Below are positions 20,298-29,852 of a stretch of 64,000 nt of DNA, one piece after another (position 1 is the first letter of the stretch; each line of letters opens with the position of its first letter). The translations under genes were made by a program, and so were the position numbers. Source of the stretch: Bradyrhizobium sp. RP6 (GTDB lineage: Bacteria; Pseudomonadota; Alphaproteobacteria; Rhizobiales; Xanthobacteraceae); the NCBI RefSeq assembly GCF_003837805.1, contig NZ_RQIT01000017.1:1-64000 (forward strand). The letters are read 5' to 3'. The notes below the pieces were generated by a model that ran no database searches, was not told the origin of the DNA, and saw nothing but the letters and a program-made list of their open reading frames with translations.

Positions 20298-20828
20298 TCA
20301 GCCGATCCGTTTCAAGCCTTTCCTGAAGCGCGGTCCGTTGGCCACGTAGAACCTGGCCGCACTGCCCATCTTCTGCACCTGCGTGTCGTCGAGCGTACGG
20401 ATCACGCGCGCGGGCGAGCCGATGATCAGCGAGCGCTCAGGGAACTCCTTGCCCTCGGTGATGACGGAGCCGGCGCCGACGATGCTGTTGCGGCCGATCC
20501 TGGCGCCGTTCATGACGATCGAGCCCATGCCGATCAGCGCGCCGTCCTCGATGGTGCAGCCGTGCAGGATGACGTTATGGCCGACGGTGCAGTCCCTGCC
20601 GATGACAAGCGGAAAGCCGAGATCGGTGTGGCAGGTCGAGCCGTCCTGCACGTTGGCGCCCTCGCCGATCTCGATCCATTCGTTGTCGCCGCGCAGCACC
20701 GCACCGAACCAGACGCTCGCACCCGGCTTCAGGCGCACCCGTCCGATCACGGTCGCGGTCTCAGCGATGAAATAATTGCCGTCGGCGGGAAGGTCGGGCG
20801 CCTGCCCGTCGAGCTCGTAGATCGCCAT
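20298..20828 (-). CDS. Gamma-carbonic anhydrase family protein (left-handed beta-helix)
   Basis: A 176-residue hexapeptide-repeat protein. The run VIGRVRLKPGASVWFGAVLR, then GDNEWIEIGEGANVQDG, then GRDCTVGHNVILHGC is the classical gamma-carbonic anhydrase layout, with histidines at HTD and GHNVILHG as metal ligands. Members either hydrate CO2 or act as acyltransferase-like or structural proteins. The start is ATG 20828, with AGGAG six bases upstream; the TTG before it is not needed. Confidence 0.9.
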   Translation of the reverse strand: MAIYELDGQAPDLPADGNYFIAETATVIGRVRLKPGASVWFGAVLRGDNEWIEIGEGANVQDGSTCHTDLGFPLVIGRDCTVGHNVILHGCTIEDGALIGMGSIVMNGARIGRNSIVGAGSVITEGKEFPERSLIIGSPARVIRTLDDTQVQKMGSAARFYVANGPRFRKGLKRIG

Positions 20829-20910
20829 CAAGGTCTCCTATCGGGTTGACCCAGCCATAGCGAAACGACAGCCCCGACGCAAAGGGCCTCCCGCGCCCAG
20901 GGCGCGTGCC

Positions 20911-22260: not shown

Positions 22261-23306
22261 GAGCGGTTCATCGATTAATTGAATCGGGAGGGATTCCGTC
22301 GGGCGGCGGTTTGTGATTCAAGATGCTGGCTGGATCGGAGGCCAGCATCGGATGGTCCGACCTCTTTCGAATGATCTTCGGGAACGAGCCGTGAAGGCGG
22401 TGGAATCGGGCGAGAGTTGCCATGCTGTGGCAGCCCGGTTCGATGTTGCAGTGTCGTCGGTCGTGAAGTGGCGGCAGCGCTATCGCGCGACGGGTTCGGT
22501 GGCGCCGGGCAAGGTGGGCGGTCACCGCAAGCCGGTTCTGGAGCCGCATCGAGCGTTCATCGTGGAGCGGATCAGGCAGACGCCACATCTCACGTTGCAC
22601 GGGCTGAAGGACGAGCTTGCCGCGCGAGGCGTGAAAGTCTCGCACCAGGCGGTGTGGACCTTCCTGCGACGCGAAGGTCTCAGCTTCAAAAAAACACTGT
22701 TCGCCCTTGAGCAGGGCCGCGCCGACGTCGCGCAGCGACGGCAACGCTGGCGCAACTTGCAGGATCGCCTCGATCCAAACCGCCTGGTGTTCATTGACGA
22801 GACCTGGATCAAGACCAGCATGGCCCCGCTGCGCGGCTGGGGATCCAAGGGCGAGCGGTTGCGCGGCTTTGCACCGCACGGTCACTGGCGAACCCTGACC
22901 TTCTTCGGTGCCCTACGCGCCGACCAGCTCACCGCGCCTTGCGTGTTCGACGGACCGATCAACGGCGAAAGCTTCCGCGCCTACGTCGAACAGCAACTCG
23001 TCAAAGTGCTCAAACCGGGCGACATCGTCGTCATGGACAATCTTGGTAGCCACAAGTCGCCAACCGTCCGGCAGATGATCCGGAAAGCCGGCGCAAGGCT
23101 ATGGTACCTGCCGCCGTACTCACCTGACCTCAACCCGATCGAGCAAGTCTTCGCCAAGATCAAGCACTGGATGCGCATCGCACAGAAGCGCTCGATCGAC
23201 GAGGCCTGCGACTACATCGGCCACCTGGTCAGAAACGTTCTGCCCGGCGAATGCAGCAACTACTTCGCTAATGCTGGATACGCTTCCATCAAAAAGTGAA
23301 ACGCTC
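22261..23306 (+). mobile_element. IS630-family insertion sequence, complete, about 1046 bp
   Basis: The ends form an imperfect 26-bp inverted repeat: left GAGCGGTTCATCGATTAATT and right, on the other strand, GAGCGTTTCACTTTTTGATG, about 18 matches of 26. It holds one intact transposase. IS630 elements duplicate a TA target; TA is present at the left boundary (22259-22260) but the right boundary reads CA. Confidence 0.85.
22352..23299 (+). CDS. IS630 family transposase
   Basis: A 315-residue DDE transposase. The N-terminal helix-turn-helix region ([20 protein letters not shown] to [10 protein letters not shown]) and a second winged helix ([16 protein letters not shown]) bind the ends. The catalytic acids are in [18 protein letters not shown] and [16 protein letters not shown], the last giving the DDE glutamate about 34 residues after the second D. 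The frame is unbroken, so the protein may be active. GTG at 22313 would give 13 extra residues; ATG 22352 fits relatives better. Confidence 0.92.
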
Positions 23307-23448: not shown

Positions 23449-23526
23449 CCCCGCGCCGTCAGATGGCGCAGATCCGTCCCCGGCCATAGCCGCCCTTCAG
23501 CAACCGCACGGGACGTTCCGGCAAGC

Positions 23527-24426
23527 TCAGTCCCGGCCCTTTCGCGCCCGGTACAGGCTCGGCGTCGTTCCGACCGCCTTGCGGAAGGCGCGGTTGAAAT
23601 TGGGCTGCGATGAAAATCCCGCGGCATAGGCGATGTCGACCAGCGGCCGATCGCTGGTGGACAAGAGCCGTTTGGCGAGATCGAGACGCTGACGGCTGAC
23701 ATATTCATGCGGCGCGCTACCTGTCGCGGCCTTGAAGCTGCGGGAGAAATGCGCGGGGCTCATGCACGCCACAGAGGCCAGATCCTTCACCGTGACATCG
23801 CGCTCGACGGATGCTTCGATGAACTCCGTCACACGCGCCAGCCGTTTGGCATCGAGCGGCCTCTGGACGGCATGGGATTGCTTCAGCCGGACTGACGTCG
23901 CCGCGTAACTGTGCACCAGATGAGCCGACAGGGCCCGTCCGAGGCTTTCGACCAGCAGGCGGCCGGTGGAGGTTTCCTGCTCGAGCTCTCCGAGGATCCG
24001 ATAGGCGACATGCTCGATGAACATGTCCTGATCGATGCTCTCGTAGCGGATGGACATTCCCGACGGATCGATCTCGAGATCCCGGAGCATCGTGTCGTCG
24101 AACGGCTGTCCGGGAAGAAAGATATGCAGGCATTCCTGCATCTCGTTCTCGACGCGGATGAAATCCTCGCGGATGCCGGCCGGACACAGCCACACGGTGC
24201 CCCTTCTGCCGAAGGTCCGCTGCCGCATGCCCGCGCCTTCGCGGTCGACGACCGAATTGCCACGCAACAGGATTGCGATTTCGGTGTCGCGCGGCAATTG
24301 CGGCGGCAGATCGCCGGGCTCATGGCTCCATCGCTCGGCAAGGAGATGCCCCCATCGCCGGTCGTTCGACGTCTGAAGCATTCGGCCGGTCACGTATTTG
24401 TCGACAGAGTTGCCAAGCATACCCAT
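23527..24426 (-). CDS. AraC family transcriptional regulator
   Basis: A 299-residue regulator. The N-terminal cupin-like sensing domain (about 1-180) is followed by two helix-turn-helix motifs: VKDLASVACMSPAHFSRSFK and VDIAYAAGFSSQPNFNRAF. The end GTTPSLYRARK is typical. The start at ATG 24426 (MGMLGNS) or 24420 is preferred over 24483. It is divergent from the molybdopterin oxidoreductase operon with 195 bases between, so that operon is its likely target. Confidence 0.9.
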   Translation of the reverse strand: MGMLGNSVDKYVTGRMLQTSNDRRWGHLLAERWSHEPGDLPPQLPRDTEIAILLRGNSVVDREGAGMRQRTFGRRGTVWLCPAGIREDFIRVENEMQECLHIFLPGQPFDDTMLRDLEIDPSGMSIRYESIDQDMFIEHVAYRILGELEQETSTGRLLVESLGRALSAHLVHSYAATSVRLKQSHAVQRPLDAKRLARVTEFIEASVERDVTVKDLASVACMSPAHFSRSFKAATGSAPHEYVSRQRLDLAKRLLSTSDRPLVDIAYAAGFSSQPNFNRAFRKAVGTTPSLYRARKGRD

Positions 24427-24621
24427 CGTCAATCTCCGCCAGATAGCGCGATGTGGGTAAAGAGGTCTTGCCGAGTCCAGCAATTAGCATGCCAGAGATC
24501 CGGCCAGTCGTCCACGGGCCGAGAGCAGTCCGGGACAAGAACACCGCACGTTTTGAAAAGCCAGGCCGGGCCCGCCGATCGCATCCTCCTGATTGCCTCA
24601 AATCAGGAAGCGGAGAGATCC

Positions 24622-26748
24622 ATGGCAAGGACCACGGTCATCGGCGCGTGCCCCCACGATTGCCCGGACACCTGCTCGATTCTGACCACGGTGGAGGACG
24701 GCAAGGCCGTCGCTGTCCGCGGCAATCCCGATCATCCTTTCACGCGTGGACGGCTTTGCGTCAAGGTCAACAACTATGAGGAGCGCGTCTACAGCGACAA
24801 GCGCGTCCTGTATCCGCTTAGACGCGTCGGACCGAAGGGCAGCAGGCAGTTCCAGCGGATCTCCTGGGAGGAAGCGCTCGCGACCATCGCCTCGCGCTGG
24901 ACATCCGTCATTGCCGAGCACGGCGCGCAGGCGATCCTGCCCTACAGCTATCTGGGCACGCAGGGCATCATCAACGGGCTGAACGTCGGCGATCCCCTCT
25001 TCAACAAGCTCGGCGCAACGGTTCTGGAGCGCACCTTCTGCGATTCCGGCTCTTGCACCGCGTACATGATGACGATCGGGCACACGCCGGGCGTCGATCC
25101 CGAGAGCTTCGTGCACTCGAAGTACATCATCCTGTGGGCCTGCAACACACTGAGCACGAACTCGCATCACTGGCCGTTCATCGAGCAGGCGAAGAAGGCC
25201 GGCGCCAAGCTGGTGGTGATCGATCCCGTCCGCACCCGCACCGCACGCCTTGCCGACTGGCATATTCCGATCCGGCCCGGCACCGACGCTGCGCTGGCGC
25301 TGGCGATGATCCACGTCATCATCAAGGAGAATCTGGTCGATCGCGACTATATCGACAAATACACCGTGGGCTACGACGAGCTGGCCGAACGGGCGTCCAG
25401 CTACACACCCGAATTCGCCTCGCACGAAACCGGCATTCCCGCCAGCGACATCGTCAAGCTGGCGCGGGAATATGCGACGACGCCGCCAGCCGTCGTCCGA
25501 ATTGGCGTCGCGGTCGAGCGGCACGCCGGCGGCGGTCAGACCGTGCGCGCGATCGCCTGTCTTCCGGGACTGATCGGCGCCTGGAAACACGTCGGCGGCG
25601 GGCTGCTCCAGCTCCCGATCTGGGCCTTCCCGGTCAGATGGGACGTGCTGATGCGTCCCGATCTCCAGCCGGAGAAGATGCGCGTGCTCAATTCCTGGCG
25701 CCTCGGAGCGGCGCTGACGGGCGAACTCGGCTTCGATCCGCCGATCAAGGCGCTGTTCGTCTACAATGCCAATCCAATGGCGATGGTGACCGAACAGGGC
25801 AAGCTCGAAAAGGGATTGGAACGCGAGGATCTCTTCACCGTCGTCAGCGAGCACTTCCTGACTGACACCGCCAAATACGCCGACATCGTTCTGCCCGCGA
25901 CCACGCAGCTCGAGCAGAAGGACATCATGTTCTCCTGGGGGCATCTCTATCTGTCTTACAACAACCAGGCGATCGCACCGCTCGGCGAAGCCGTGTCCAA
26001 TACCGAGCTGTTCCGCCGGCTCGCGCGCGCGATGGACATCACCGACCCCTCCTTCTTCCGCAGCGACGACGAGATCATCGAAGCTTCCCTCGACTGGAGC
26101 AGCCCGGTGCTCGCAGGCATCAGGCTCGACGATGTCAAGGCCAAGGGCTATGCGCGTCTCAATATGCCCGCGCCAGCCGACTGGGCGCCGCACCGCGAGG
26201 GCAATTTTCCGACCGCGTCCGGCAAGTGCGAGTTCAAGTCGACGATCGCCGGCGGCGGCAACTTCGTGGTGCCGCTGTTCCGCCAAGGCTACAATGGCGA
26301 GCAGGATGGCGCGCCGGTCGATCCCCTGCCCCACTACATCCCCCCGAACGAGAATGCGCGCACCGCCCCCGCGCTCGCGACGCGCTACCCACTCAGCCTG
26401 ATCTCGCCCAAGAGCCACGCCTTCCTCAATTCCAACTACGGCAACCTGCCGGCCCAGACCGCGCAGGCCGGCGAGGAGCAGGCGGTTCTGCTCAACCCGG
26501 ACGATGCGGCGACGCGCGGGATCGTCGCAGGTGCGCCGATCCGCGTCTTCAACGATCGTGGATCGTTCGACGCGTTCGCGACCGTTTCGCCCGACATCAT
26601 GCCGGGCGTCGTGGTGGCACCGTCCGGTTATTGGCAACGCTCCAACAGCAAGGGTGCGACGGTTCACGCGTTGACGCCTCCGGCCTTCGCCGACCTCGGC
26701 CGTGCCCCGACATTCTCTGACATCCTCGTTCAGGTCAGCGGGGCCTGA
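24622..26748 (+). CDS. Molybdopterin oxidoreductase (DMSO reductase superfamily), 4Fe-4S
   Basis: A 708-residue molybdenum or tungsten bis-MGD enzyme. A [4Fe-4S] site is formed by C10, C14, C18 and C46 (ACPHDCPDTC, GRLCVK). C140 in ERTFCDSG occupies the place where formate dehydrogenases carry the Cys or Sec metal ligand. The MGD-binding segments and the C-terminal dinucleotide-binding barrel (near VLLNPDDAATRGIVAGAPIR) are present. No Tat signal is seen, so it should be cytoplasmic. The frame is open from 23911, but ATG 24622 with GGAG upstream is the start. The ferredoxin and reductase genes follow at once. The substrate is unknown. Confidence 0.9.
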   Translation: MARTTVIGACPHDCPDTCSILTTVEDGKAVAVRGNPDHPFTRGRLCVKVNNYEERVYSDKRVLYPLRRVGPKGSRQFQRISWEEALATIASRWTSVIAEHGAQAILPYSYLGTQGIINGLNVGDPLFNKLGATVLERTFCDSGSCTAYMMTIGHTPGVDPESFVHSKYIILWACNTLSTNSHHWPFIEQAKKAGAKLVVIDPVRTRTARLADWHIPIRPGTDAALALAMIHVIIKENLVDRDYIDKYTVGYDELAERASSYTPEFASHETGIPASDIVKLAREYATTPPAVVRIGVAVERHAGGGQTVRAIACLPGLIGAWKHVGGGLLQLPIWAFPVRWDVLMRPDLQPEKMRVLNSWRLGAALTGELGFDPPIKALFVYNANPMAMVTEQGKLEKGLEREDLFTVVSEHFLTDTAKYADIVLPATTQLEQKDIMFSWGHLYLSYNNQAIAPLGEAVSNTELFRRLARAMDITDPSFFRSDDEIIEASLDWSSPVLAGIRLDDVKAKGYARLNMPAPADWAPHREGNFPTASGKCEFKSTIAGGGNFVVPLFRQGYNGEQDGAPVDPLPHYIPPNENARTAPALATRYPLSLISPKSHAFLNSNYGNLPAQTAQAGEEQAVLLNPDDAATRGIVAGAPIRVFNDRGSFDAFATVSPDIMPGVVVAPSGYWQRSNSKGATVHALTPPAFADLGRAPTFSDILVQVSGA

Positions 26749-26750
26749 CG

Positions 26751-27056
26751 ATGACATATGTGGTCACCGACAATTGCCGCGGCTGCCGATACACCGAATG
26801 CGTGACCGTCTGTCCCGTGGAGTGTTTCCACGTCGACGACGCCATGACCTACATCGATCCGGAAAACTGCATCGATTGCGGTGGCTGCGCACCGGCTTGC
26901 CCGGTCGGCGCGATCGAGCCCGACTATCGCCTCGCCGCGGACAAGAAGTACTGGATCGACGTCAACCGCAAGCGCGCGACCGAGACTCCCGTCATCAGTG
27001 CGCGCCTGCCGGCTCTGCCGGGGGCCGATGAACGCAGGCGGGCGCTGGGTCGATGA
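26751..27056 (+). CDS. Ferredoxin, FdxA-like (3Fe-4S plus 4Fe-4S)
   Basis: A 101-residue electron carrier. The first cluster site is CRGCRYTECVTVCPVECF, and the second is CIDCGGCAPACPVG. The opening MTYVVTDNC is the hallmark of FdxA-type 7Fe ferredoxins. The start is 2 bases after the molybdoenzyme stop, and the end overlaps the next start by 4 bases (ATGA), so the three are translated together. Confidence 0.92.
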   Translation: MTYVVTDNCRGCRYTECVTVCPVECFHVDDAMTYIDPENCIDCGGCAPACPVGAIEPDYRLAADKKYWIDVNRKRATETPVISARLPALPGADERRRALGR

Positions 27057-28369
27057 CGGGGTCCGCCGCAAACGAAAATCGCATCGCCGTCGTCGGCAGC
27101 GGACCGAGCGGCTTCTACACCACCGAGGCCCTGTTGCGCTCGGGCGCGCCCTTGACGGTCGACATGTTCGAACGGCTCCCGGTGCCGTACGGGCTGGTGC
27201 GGTTCGGCGTGGCCCCCGACCATCCGAAGCTCAAGCAGGTCACAGCGGCCTTCGACCGGATCGCCGCCATGCCCGGGTTTCGCTTCATCGGCGGCGTGAC
27301 GATCGGAGACGACCTCACGATCGACGAACTGCGCGAGGCCTATGACGCCGTCGTGCTGGCAACGGGCGCGGAACTGAGCCGGGCGCTCGACATCCCCGGC
27401 GAAGCACTCCCGGGCAGCCACACGGCGGGCGATTTCGTCGCGTGGTACAACGGACATCCACAGTTTGCGGATCTGCGGTTCGACCTTCATCATGAGACCG
27501 CAATCGTCATCGGCCATGGCAACGTCGCTCTCGACGTGGCGCGCATCCTCGCCAAGACCGCGGACGAGCTGCGCCGGACCGACATCGCGCGTCATGCGCT
27601 CGAGGTGCTGGCTGAGAGCCGGATCCGCGAAATCCACGTCGTCGGCCGCGGCGGACCGGCGCAGGCCAGATTCACCGCAAAGGAATTGCGTGACTTTCTC
27701 GAACTGAACACATGCGACACATGCGTCGACATGCGTAACGTCAGCTCCGATGAATTCGAGCCGCGATCCCCCGACGATCCGGAGCTGACCGAAAAATTGT
27801 CGTTGCTGCGCGCGTTCTCGCGAACGTCCGCGACGAAGCCGCGGCGCTGCGTTTTTCGCTTTCGACTGTCACCCGTCGCGCTCCGAGGACGAGGCCGCCT
27901 GAAGGCCATCGCGTTCAAGCAGGAATCGGGGGCTGTCGAGGACATCGCATGCGGCCTCTCGCTCAGCAGCGTCGGCCGGAAGACCACGCCGTTGGCTGGG
28001 GTTCCCTATGACGCGCATCGCGGCGTGCATGCGAATGTCGACGGACGTGTCGCGGCCGATGGTTCGGTGATCGAGGGCCTCTATGTCTGCGGATGGAGCA
28101 AGCGCGGGCCGAACGGCACGATCGGCACCAATCGCGGCTGCGGGATTGCGACCGCAGAGGCCATCCTGGCGGATATCACCCATCGACGGCCGCGCTCGGA
28201 TACGCCTGACGCACTGCTTGCGCGCCTGACCGGCCGCGTCGCACGCATCGTGAGCTATCCGGATTGGGCCACGATCGACGCGGCCGAGAAGCGCCGGGGA
28301 GCCGCGCTCGGCAAGCCCCGGGAGAAGTTTGTCACGATTCCCGACATGCTTGCCGCGATGGATTCGTGA
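27053..28369 (+). CDS. Ferredoxin-NADP+ reductase (FprA-type, adrenodoxin reductase-like)
   Basis: A 438-residue flavoprotein that moves electrons between NADPH and ferredoxin. FAD-binding turn VVGSGPSGFYTTEAL, NADP-binding turn VIGHGNVALDVARIL, and the closing GWSKRGPNGTIGTNRGCG match FprA. Its ATGA overlap with the ferredoxin and the shared operon show that it serves the ferredoxin and, through it, the molybdoenzyme. Confidence 0.92.
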   Translation: MTGSAANENRIAVVGSGPSGFYTTEALLRSGAPLTVDMFERLPVPYGLVRFGVAPDHPKLKQVTAAFDRIAAMPGFRFIGGVTIGDDLTIDELREAYDAVVLATGAELSRALDIPGEALPGSHTAGDFVAWYNGHPQFADLRFDLHHETAIVIGHGNVALDVARILAKTADELRRTDIARHALEVLAESRIREIHVVGRGGPAQARFTAKELRDFLELNTCDTCVDMRNVSSDEFEPRSPDDPELTEKLSLLRAFSRTSATKPRRCVFRFRLSPVALRGRGRLKAIAFKQESGAVEDIACGLSLSSVGRKTTPLAGVPYDAHRGVHANVDGRVAADGSVIEGLYVCGWSKRGPNGTIGTNRGCGIATAEAILADITHRRPRSDTPDALLARLTGRVARIVSYPDWATIDAAEKRRGAALGKPREKFVTIPDMLAAMDS

Positions 28370-28748: not shown

Positions 28749-29573
28749 TCAAAGCCCCATGGCGTTGATCATCTGATCCATGGTGCGCGACGGCTCGGCA
28801 CAGCCGGCTTCGCCGACGATCTTGGCGGGCACGCCTGCAACCGTGACGTTGTGCGGCACCGGCTTGACCACGACCGAGCCGGCAGCGATGCGGGCGCAGT
28901 GGCCGATCTCGATGTTGCCCAGGATCTTCGCGCCGGCGCCAATCAAGACGCCGTGACGGATCTTCGGATGACGATCCTCGTTCTCCTTGCCGGTGCCGCC
29001 GAGCGTGACGCCGTGCAGGATCGAGACGTCGTCCTCGATCACCGCCGTCTCGCCGCAGACGAAACCGGTGGCGTGGTCGAGGAAGATGCCGCGGCCGATG
29101 CGCGCGGCGGGATTGATGTCGGTCTGGAACACCGCCGACGATCGGCTCTGGAGATAGTAAGCGAAATCCTTGCGGCCCTTCAGATAGAGCCAGTGCGCGA
29201 GACGATGGGTCTCGATCGCGTGAAAGCCCTTGAAGTAGAGCAAGGGATCGATGAAGCGCGAGGTCGCGGGATCGCGATCGTAGATGGCAACGAGATCGGC
29301 ACGGAAGGCGTTGCCGAGGTCGGGATCGTCGCGCAGCGCCTCGTCGTAGGTCTGGCGCACGAGATCGCCCGACAGCGCGGAGTGATCGAGCCGGTCGGCG
29401 AGACGGTGGATCACCGAGTCCTCGAGGCGGCTGTGATGCAGCACAGTCGAATAGATGAAGGTCGCAAGCTCGGGCTCACGGTGGACGATATCCTCCGCTT
29501 CGCTCCGGATCCGGTCCCAGATCGGATCGAGCGATGCGAGCTTTCCTCCCGGATTGACCTGATGCACTGCCAT
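28749..29573 (-). CDS. cysE: Serine O-acetyltransferase
   Basis: A 274-residue cytoplasmic enzyme making O-acetylserine from serine and acetyl-CoA, the first step of cysteine synthesis. The N-terminal helical domain (about 1-150, with DPLLYFKGFHAIETHRLAHWL) is followed by the left-handed beta-helix. The catalytic HATGFVCGETA and GVTLGGTGKE segments are intact. The start at ATG 29573 (MAVHQVNP) is preferred; the frame to 29618 adds 15 residues. It is divergent from the membrane protein gene at 29853. Confidence 0.95.
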   Translation of the reverse strand: MAVHQVNPGGKLASLDPIWDRIRSEAEDIVHREPELATFIYSTVLHHSRLEDSVIHRLADRLDHSALSGDLVRQTYDEALRDDPDLGNAFRADLVAIYDRDPATSRFIDPLLYFKGFHAIETHRLAHWLYLKGRKDFAYYLQSRSSAVFQTDINPAARIGRGIFLDHATGFVCGETAVIEDDVSILHGVTLGGTGKENEDRHPKIRHGVLIGAGAKILGNIEIGHCARIAAGSVVVKPVPHNVTVAGVPAKIVGEAGCAEPSRTMDQMINAMGL

Positions 29574-29852
29574 GGATTTGCTCTCTCGAATTGGCCTCTT
29601 TTGCAGGCTGTATAGCACAGTCTAGGCGACAAAGTCCTGACGGGCTTGCCTCAGGAGTGAACAGCACCTTGTCCCGCGCAGGCTCGCCAAGGCCTTGAAA
29701 CACAACAGTTTCTTCCGACGCCCCCATGCGGCAAGGTCGGCTCAAAATGGTCAGAGTTCTGCCAAATTCAAGCGGGGCGGCATCAAACTATTGGTGAATT
29801 CGCTTCCAGCCGCTATTGCAGGGAAGGTCCGAACGAGGGGCGCGGAGCCGAT

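Follow-up and report, generated by a model that had tools for sequence, protein, structure and literature searches.

The subject of this analysis is a set of four genes within a 64,000-nucleotide stretch of DNA from Bradyrhizobium sp. RP6 (contig NZ_RQIT01000017.1, positions 1 to 64,000; hereafter the window): genes for a soluble molybdoenzyme (P0001, 708 residues; 24622..26748, plus strand), a ferredoxin (P0002, 101 residues; 26751..27056, plus strand) and a ferredoxin-NAD(P) reductase (P0003, 438 residues; 27053..28369, plus strand), together with a divergent gene for an AraC/XylS-family regulator (P0004, 299 residues; 23527..24426, minus strand). We find that this set is a conserved, mobile and self-regulated redox module, whose genes stay together well outside this one genome. 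The function that we favour, with about even confidence, is that of an inducible, accessory and self-contained reductase system, in which electrons would pass from NAD(P)H via the flavoprotein and the ferredoxin to the molybdoenzyme, the substrate and the direction of flow being read from context. Rechecking the locus bore out its description in an earlier note on this DNA, from coordinates and gene order to the finer spacing: the ferredoxin start codon (ATG, 26751) follows the end of the molybdoenzyme gene (26748) with a spacing of 2 bases, the flavoprotein ATG (27053) and the ferredoxin stop codon share an ATGA overlap and the AraC gene diverges from the three across a gap of 195 bases. From this spacing and from conservation we infer that the three genes are co-transcribed as an operon. 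The source genome is 7.7 Mb in size and, among named organisms, it is in Bradyrhizobium that the operon has its closest relatives.

In order to follow the set across genomes, the four window proteins were compared by tblastn with fetched loci (87 loci: 80 from genome contigs and 7 from plasmids). Homologues of the enzyme, ferredoxin and reductase were found on the same strand and in the same order in 26 of the 87 loci, with the divergent AraC gene also present in 19 of these 26. As a control we used a paralogue of 34% identity that is widespread in the order: a homologue of any partner was found in none of its 20 loci, a count without plasmid loci, in which some genomes contribute loci through two collections. 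Since the full set recurs in order in 26/87 loci as against 0/20 paralogue loci, chance can be excluded as the origin of the arrangement. One copy of this paralogue stands tail to tail with a 79% relative of the window enzyme (locus L012, 1501–5109). Merging identical enzymes and adding the plasmid loci except L043 gave 131 distinct enzymes among 140 loci: relatives with at least 75% identity (34 distinct) are accompanied by AraC in 34/34 cases, by the ferredoxin in 33/34 and by the reductase in 33/34, with all three partners present in 18/18 relatives at 90% identity or above, and ferredoxin plus reductase in 15/16 and AraC in 16/16 of those at 75–90%. At 60–75% identity (n = 29), ferredoxin, reductase and AraC were found 8, 3 and 4 times, respectively. 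The ferredoxin-reductase pair (13 rows) requires at least four state changes on a 54-row tree, and its association with the enzyme has therefore been gained or lost repeatedly; the pair recurs elsewhere in the family tree, in Pseudorhodoferax (L066), Methylopilaceae (L096/L114), Methyloversatilis (L108) and on a Methylophaga plasmid (L042). Neighbouring genes were clustered using an in-house open reading frame caller and single linkage, with some reading frame starts and clusters unreliable in G+C-rich loci.

The full set occurs in, among others, Bradyrhizobium, Rhodopseudomonas, Rhizobium, Methylobacterium and Pseudacidovorax, and it is also carried by Agrobacterium/Allorhizobium and Thioclava plasmids, as well as by a Methylophaga plasmid without the AraC gene. 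In five annotated plasmid operons with the set, a molybdenum-cofactor gene comes next (moaA in four, glp in one); downstream of the window operon neither is present, and a serine acetyltransferase gene is found instead (28752–29618, minus strand, opposite to the operon), an adjacency that is kept in related Bradyrhizobium loci. Matches with E <= 1e-150 occur in 27 of 146 genomes of the genus (20 at 82–100% identity, 3 at 68–69% and 4 at 54–56%): the operon is accessory in Bradyrhizobium. Several relatives stand apart as observations of their own. A 96% identical enzyme gene (L147, genome G386) matches residues 1–535 only and is perhaps truncated; on the Bradyrhizobium plasmid pCB82_1 (L040, 8001–10106) a 70% relative lies in a stretch with no listed gene and no adjoining partner genes; and on a Streptomyces plasmid (L043, 5376–12460) a 44% relative sits among biosynthesis-like genes, perhaps a natural-product cluster, in a run encoding an iron redox enzyme, a 2-oxoglutarate-Fe dioxygenase, an epimerase, an aminotransferase and an ornithine cyclodeaminase. 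In a phage collection 34 records match at below 60% identity, the best 3 of the 34 being dimethyl sulfoxide (DMSO) reductase chain A genes rather than relatives of the clade.

The regulator carries the C-terminal double helix-turn-helix of AraC proteins (HTH_18, 88.9 bits, and HTH_AraC, both over cut-off), and Pfam detects no N-terminal domain in it. Alignment of 17 intergenic regions shows one conserved element in otherwise divergent sequence, the direct repeat GCAG-N4-GGAnAA-N7-GCA-N6-GAnAA, with its two halves 21 bp apart, which in the window lies at 24525..24559 (plus strand). A strict form of this pattern, which was written only after the alignment had been viewed, is found in 11 of the 17 regions but never in 3400 mononucleotide shuffles. 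In its own genome the repeat has a single exact match, at this operon, and three places with two mismatches (the reversed control also gave three). The repeat fits a putative operator, and because its sole exact genome match is at this operon, the regulator appears to be dedicated to it. Conservation of the unit across loci and of the direct repeat thus supports the view of the earlier note, in which the genes form an electron-transfer unit that is self-contained and has a regulator of its own.

The enzyme belongs to the Mo/W bis-molybdopterin guanine dinucleotide (bis-MGD; DMSO reductase, MopB) superfamily (PF00384, 141.8 bits; PF01568, 77.7 bits; both over cut-off; PF04879 also present), with a CX3CX3C...C [4Fe-4S] site at its N-terminus and no twin-arginine signal. 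An AlphaFold2 model (mean predicted local distance difference test score 91.5, predicted TM-score 0.92) exhibits the fold of this superfamily and aligns with known members over 600–677 residues with Z-scores above 32. Residues C10, C14, C18, C46, K48 and C140 are invariant in all 58 rows of our alignment, while C145 is not (Cys in 30/58). The assignment of C140 (codon 25039..25041, plus strand) to the metal-ligand position, already made in the earlier note, holds: it aligns with U140 of Escherichia coli FdhF, with the ligand Cys of NapA and with the MCIGN stretch of acetylene hydratase. Tyr110 is likewise invariant (58/58), and its counterpart in BisC is the Tyr within SYGW; in DMSO reductase this Tyr handles the oxo group.

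The same note had taken C140 as a likeness to formate dehydrogenases, and this comparison did not survive. Fold, the Cys/Sec ligand position and a Lys between cluster and cofactor are indeed common to the window enzyme, FdhF and FdsA, and formate dehydrogenases stand near the top of the fold ranking; however, of the residues U140, H141 and R333 (in an RGQNN stretch) that mark FdhF, only the ligand position has its counterpart here. The residue after C140 is D in 29 of the 58 rows, G in 15, E in 8, A in 3, I in 2 and T in 1, but never His, and the Arg motif RG[QH][NS]N is found in 0/58 rows. Scores against the formate dehydrogenase models are below cut-off (TIGR01591, 243.1 of 666.25 bits; TIGR01701, 66.4 of 582.15 bits) and in a mixture-model tree of 27 rows a branch with support of 97/91 separates the clade from FdhF, FdsA, NapA and YdeP. 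A formate dehydrogenase is thus rejected on residues, tree and model scores, and we regard it as highly improbable.

Phylogenetic placement had been proposed in the earlier note as a check, and its outcome points away from the formate dehydrogenases. In the mixture-model tree the clade and its relatives of 34–44% identity stand alone (94/95), and acetylene hydratase and PsrA fall on the clade's side of the 97/91 branch with positions there that are not settled (fork 72/70). A quicker tree of 74 rows placed acetylene hydratase beside the clade with a support of 88, together with a long-branch warning. Judged from these alignments and trees, the enzyme belongs to a deep clade that shares its side of the superfamily with DmsA, PsrA and acetylene hydratase. 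Profile comparison with four E. coli and Protein Data Bank (PDB) references ranked DmsA best (E 8.4e-73 over 688 columns), with E-values of 1.4e-44 for FdhF, 2.1e-41 for BisC and 2.7e-45 for a 320-residue fragment of acetylene hydratase. A profile search of the PDB gave acetylene hydratase (288 bits), the FdhF of hydrogen-dependent CO2 reductase (HDCR; 281) and an archaeal formate dehydrogenase (275), with no DmsA among the matches listed. With DmsA and YnfE of E. coli, the catalytic subunits of DMSO and selenate reductases, the window enzyme shares a full-length profile alignment and the same CX3CX3C start; it differs in lacking a twin-arginine signal and in having soluble ferredoxin and flavoprotein partners in place of DmsB and DmsC.

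A close match to a characterised enzyme, which the earlier note had named as grounds against its reading, was not found: solved structures are distant, and all NCBIfam matches listed (25 of 26) lie far below cut-off, the best being dmsA_ynfE (TIGR02166; 299.8 against 777.7 bits). No clade member with a known function was found among NCBIfam or PDB matches or in a literature search that took in few subscription papers; nor did that search return anything pairing a molybdopterin oxidoreductase with an adrenodoxin reductase. Two further candidates, the nitrate reductase NasC and the Fdh4A/YdeP family, were rejected. The ferredoxin-dependent assimilatory nitrate reductases (NarB/NasA/NasC) are soluble, Cys-ligated and fed by ferredoxin or NAD(P)H, but the window unit contains no nitrite reductase gene and the enzyme reaches only 191.2 of 1100 bits with the NasC model. 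Fdh4A from Methylorubrum extorquens and PP_0256/PP_4596 from Pseudomonas putida are, according to PMC10308882, methylotroph-linked soluble molybdoenzymes of the FdhF/YdeP family, resembling the window enzyme and its relatives in being soluble and linked to methylotrophs but of a different family, given the low TIGR01701 score and the placement of YdeP opposite the clade in the tree.

The two partner proteins supply the case for electron delivery from a pyridine nucleotide. The ferredoxin contains Fer4 domains (Pfam), finds its best PDB matches in variants of Azotobacter ferredoxin I (FdI; E 8.4e-21) and keeps every Cys of the aligned FdI stretch, as befits a 7Fe protein of the FdI/FdxA type. 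The flavoprotein (Pyr_redox_2) aligns over residues 10–434 with adrenodoxin reductase (1cjc, E 1.9e-90) and over nearly its full length with mycobacterial FprA (1lqt, E 1.6e-89), differing from both in that it is encoded with a molybdoenzyme. Adrenodoxin-type reductases usually pass electrons from NADPH to ferredoxin, and because the window reductase is of this type, NAD(P)H as the donor and hence the reductive direction are favoured. In three actinobacterial genomes tested (Nocardioides, Rhodococcus and Pseudonocardia), an FprA-like reductase is encoded elsewhere in the genome, and at two of their loci, L070 and L084, a ferredoxin adjoins the enzyme.

In the NAD(P)H-driven reductase that we favour, the AraC protein would respond to an inducer by binding the direct repeat between the divergent genes, and the three-gene operon would then be made. 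The flavoprotein would then take electrons from NADPH (or NADH) and hand them to the 7Fe ferredoxin, which would in turn make contact with the soluble molybdoenzyme and feed its N-terminal [4Fe-4S] cluster; from there electrons would reach the Cys140-ligated Mo (or W) bis-MGD centre, where a small oxidised compound would probably be reduced. Because ferredoxin and reductase are dedicated and inducible, we argue for stoichiometric electron traffic. The profile match to DmsA and the alignment of Tyr110 with BisC also favour a reductase. Reduction of DMSO, dimethylsulfone or trimethylamine N-oxide was considered as a candidate activity. Acyl-CoA dehydrogenases near loci L038, L051 and L054 score weakly for SfnB (58–65 bits, cut-off 431), giving no sulfone link, and a literature search found nothing on a dimethylsulfone reductase. 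At Pseudomaricurvus locus L061 the gene run continues with genes for a TonB receptor and an aldehyde dehydrogenase; in NCBIfam the latter scores highest with acetaldehyde dehydrogenase models, at 380 and 374 bits, though short of their cut-offs of 951 and 620. What comes next at L060 is again a TonB receptor, together with a choline-dehydrogenase-like gene. These downstream genes hint at small organic substrates, without agreeing on one.

Several findings weigh against this NAD(P)H-driven reductase. Relatives at 50–60% identity (n = 68, of which 8 have less than 1.4 kb of downstream flank) have the ferredoxin in only 16 cases, the reductase in 14 and AraC in none, and one close relative (L012, 79%) lacks the ferredoxin-reductase pair as the sole exception above 75%. 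A reductase of this type was found (E <= 1e-30) in none of the four methylotroph genomes tested. The ferredoxin scores below the cut-off of FdxA_Protbact (NF045490; 112.6 against 135 bits). At its putative NADP-phosphate site the window flavoprotein has GRGGP rather than the GRRGP of adrenodoxin reductase and FprA (GRR in 22 and GRG in 14 of 36 homologues); the twin Arg of GRRGP plays a role in NADPH preference. GRGGP in this lineage therefore makes a preference for NADPH over NADH uncertain, with NADH possible, so that of the NADPH-linked reductase proposed earlier the protein type stands and the cofactor is in doubt. The Ser ligand of DmsA/BisC-type enzymes is absent, with Cys in 58/58 rows, and the alignment of Tyr110, clear against BisC, shifts by a residue or two between methods against DmsA. 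Structure scores are bunched and single out no reductase, with Z-scores of 37.9 for formate dehydrogenase 8j83, 36.8 for acetylene hydratase and 35.9 for NapA, and with formate dehydrogenase N and FdhF close too.

The chain could also run in the opposite direction, with the molybdoenzyme oxidising a small donor (a one-carbon compound or an aldehyde) and ferredoxin and flavoprotein passing the electrons to NAD(P)+. This dehydrogenase, which we consider unlikely, draws on the sister clade (54–58% identity), most of whose hosts are methylotrophs (Methylobacter, Methylophaga, Methylobacillus, Methylobacterium and Hyphomicrobium), and on the formate dehydrogenases at the head of one structure ranking. 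Within the order searched, the sister-clade enzyme has been retained even in four genomes of 1.3–1.4 Mb that have just three PF00384 genes apiece; in one of them (G1058, 1.28 Mb; L209, 4270–15129) the enzyme gene starts 55 bases from a divergent fdsGBA-fdhD and is itself followed by moaA, mobA and moeA. The 1.3 Mb genomes are perhaps OM43-like. Formate itself is an unlikely donor on the residues and tree placement described above, however, and G1058 already has an NAD-type formate dehydrogenase, while in G1118 the enzyme is not near a formate dehydrogenase-like gene. The sister clade is also mostly without the ferredoxin/reductase pair, and from the absence of such a reductase in all four methylotroph genomes tested it follows that the sister-clade enzyme works with other partners. 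Among gene neighbours of the methylotroph clade no cluster was common to many loci, and a literature search for methylotroph expression data found only unrelated work. Persistence of the sister clade in small genomes and its setting in G1058 suggest a duty there related to one-carbon compounds, possibly but not necessarily shared by the window clade.

A further alternative involves no net redox: a Mo-type aerobic hydratase of acetylene (or another alkyne) yielding acetaldehyde, with the NAD(P)H-flavoprotein-ferredoxin chain keeping the metal reduced and active. In the PDB the top match by sequence is the acetylene hydratase from Syntrophotalea (Pelobacter) acetylenica (2e7z; 184 bits), which also leads by profile, there barely above HDCR FdhF, and has the best two-way TM-score among the matches listed (0.83/0.81); it and the window enzyme are both soluble, Cys-ligated and have one [4Fe-4S] cluster, C140 aligning with the ligand Cys141 in PDB sequence and profile alignments, although a MAFFT alignment is gapped there. 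According to PMC7858054, the enzyme of Rhodococcus opacus is molybdenum-dependent, no acetylene-transforming enzyme from an aerobe had been characterised and almost every acetylene hydratase gene has genes for Fe-S proteins in its vicinity, all of which speaks for this alternative. On the other side, 2e7z exhibits CX2C, tungsten and an anaerobic host where the window enzyme has CX3C, and its Asp13, described as catalytic and subfamily-specific in PMC12096430, aligns with Pro15, which is Pro in 58/58 rows; Asp16 (57/58 rows), one residue further on, may stand in for it. Acetylene hydratase joins the clade with weak support in both trees, a TonB receptor as at L061 is not needed for acetylene and the sister clade is found in streamlined methylotroph-like genomes. 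We therefore judge such a hydratase improbable. The same holds for its bolder version, in which the operon would encode the long-missing aerobic Mo-dependent hydratase with a built-in reactivation module, the chain re-reducing the metal after oxygen damage: this too strikes us as a long shot. A Bradyrhizobium strain, I71, reportedly grows on acetylene, from which we claim nothing. Our literature search found nothing on Bradyrhizobium growing on acetylene, and PMC6013536 is silent on Bradyrhizobium. Nevertheless, the hydratase is worth an assay, though the missing Asp13 counts against it, because of the standing of 2e7z as the nearest solved relative, the reported Mo dependence in aerobes and the acetaldehyde-dehydrogenase-like gene at L061.

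Around the operon, homology to the window extends in four of five compared Bradyrhizobium loci from the AraC end across the operon to beyond the serine acetyltransferase gene, the fifth locus matching in two pieces, and it starts at 23519–23539 in all five. Directly preceding the AraC gene is a complete-looking DDE_3 (IS630-type) transposase gene (22313–23296), a stretch that is unmatched in these five nearest loci. Further upstream lies a hexapeptide-repeat gene (20301–20831, minus strand), gamma-carbonic-anhydrase-like by eye.

Our findings thus describe a widespread clade of soluble molybdoenzymes that is tied to a dedicated three-gene electron chain and a regulator moving between bacteria, plasmids included. 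As a compact unit that can be expressed as a block, it makes both the direction of electron flow and the substrate directly testable. If the enzyme were an acetylene hydratase, this would answer which enzyme aerobes use; if it is a reductase, the operon would represent a soluble molybdoenzyme system of a new kind, driven by NAD(P)H.

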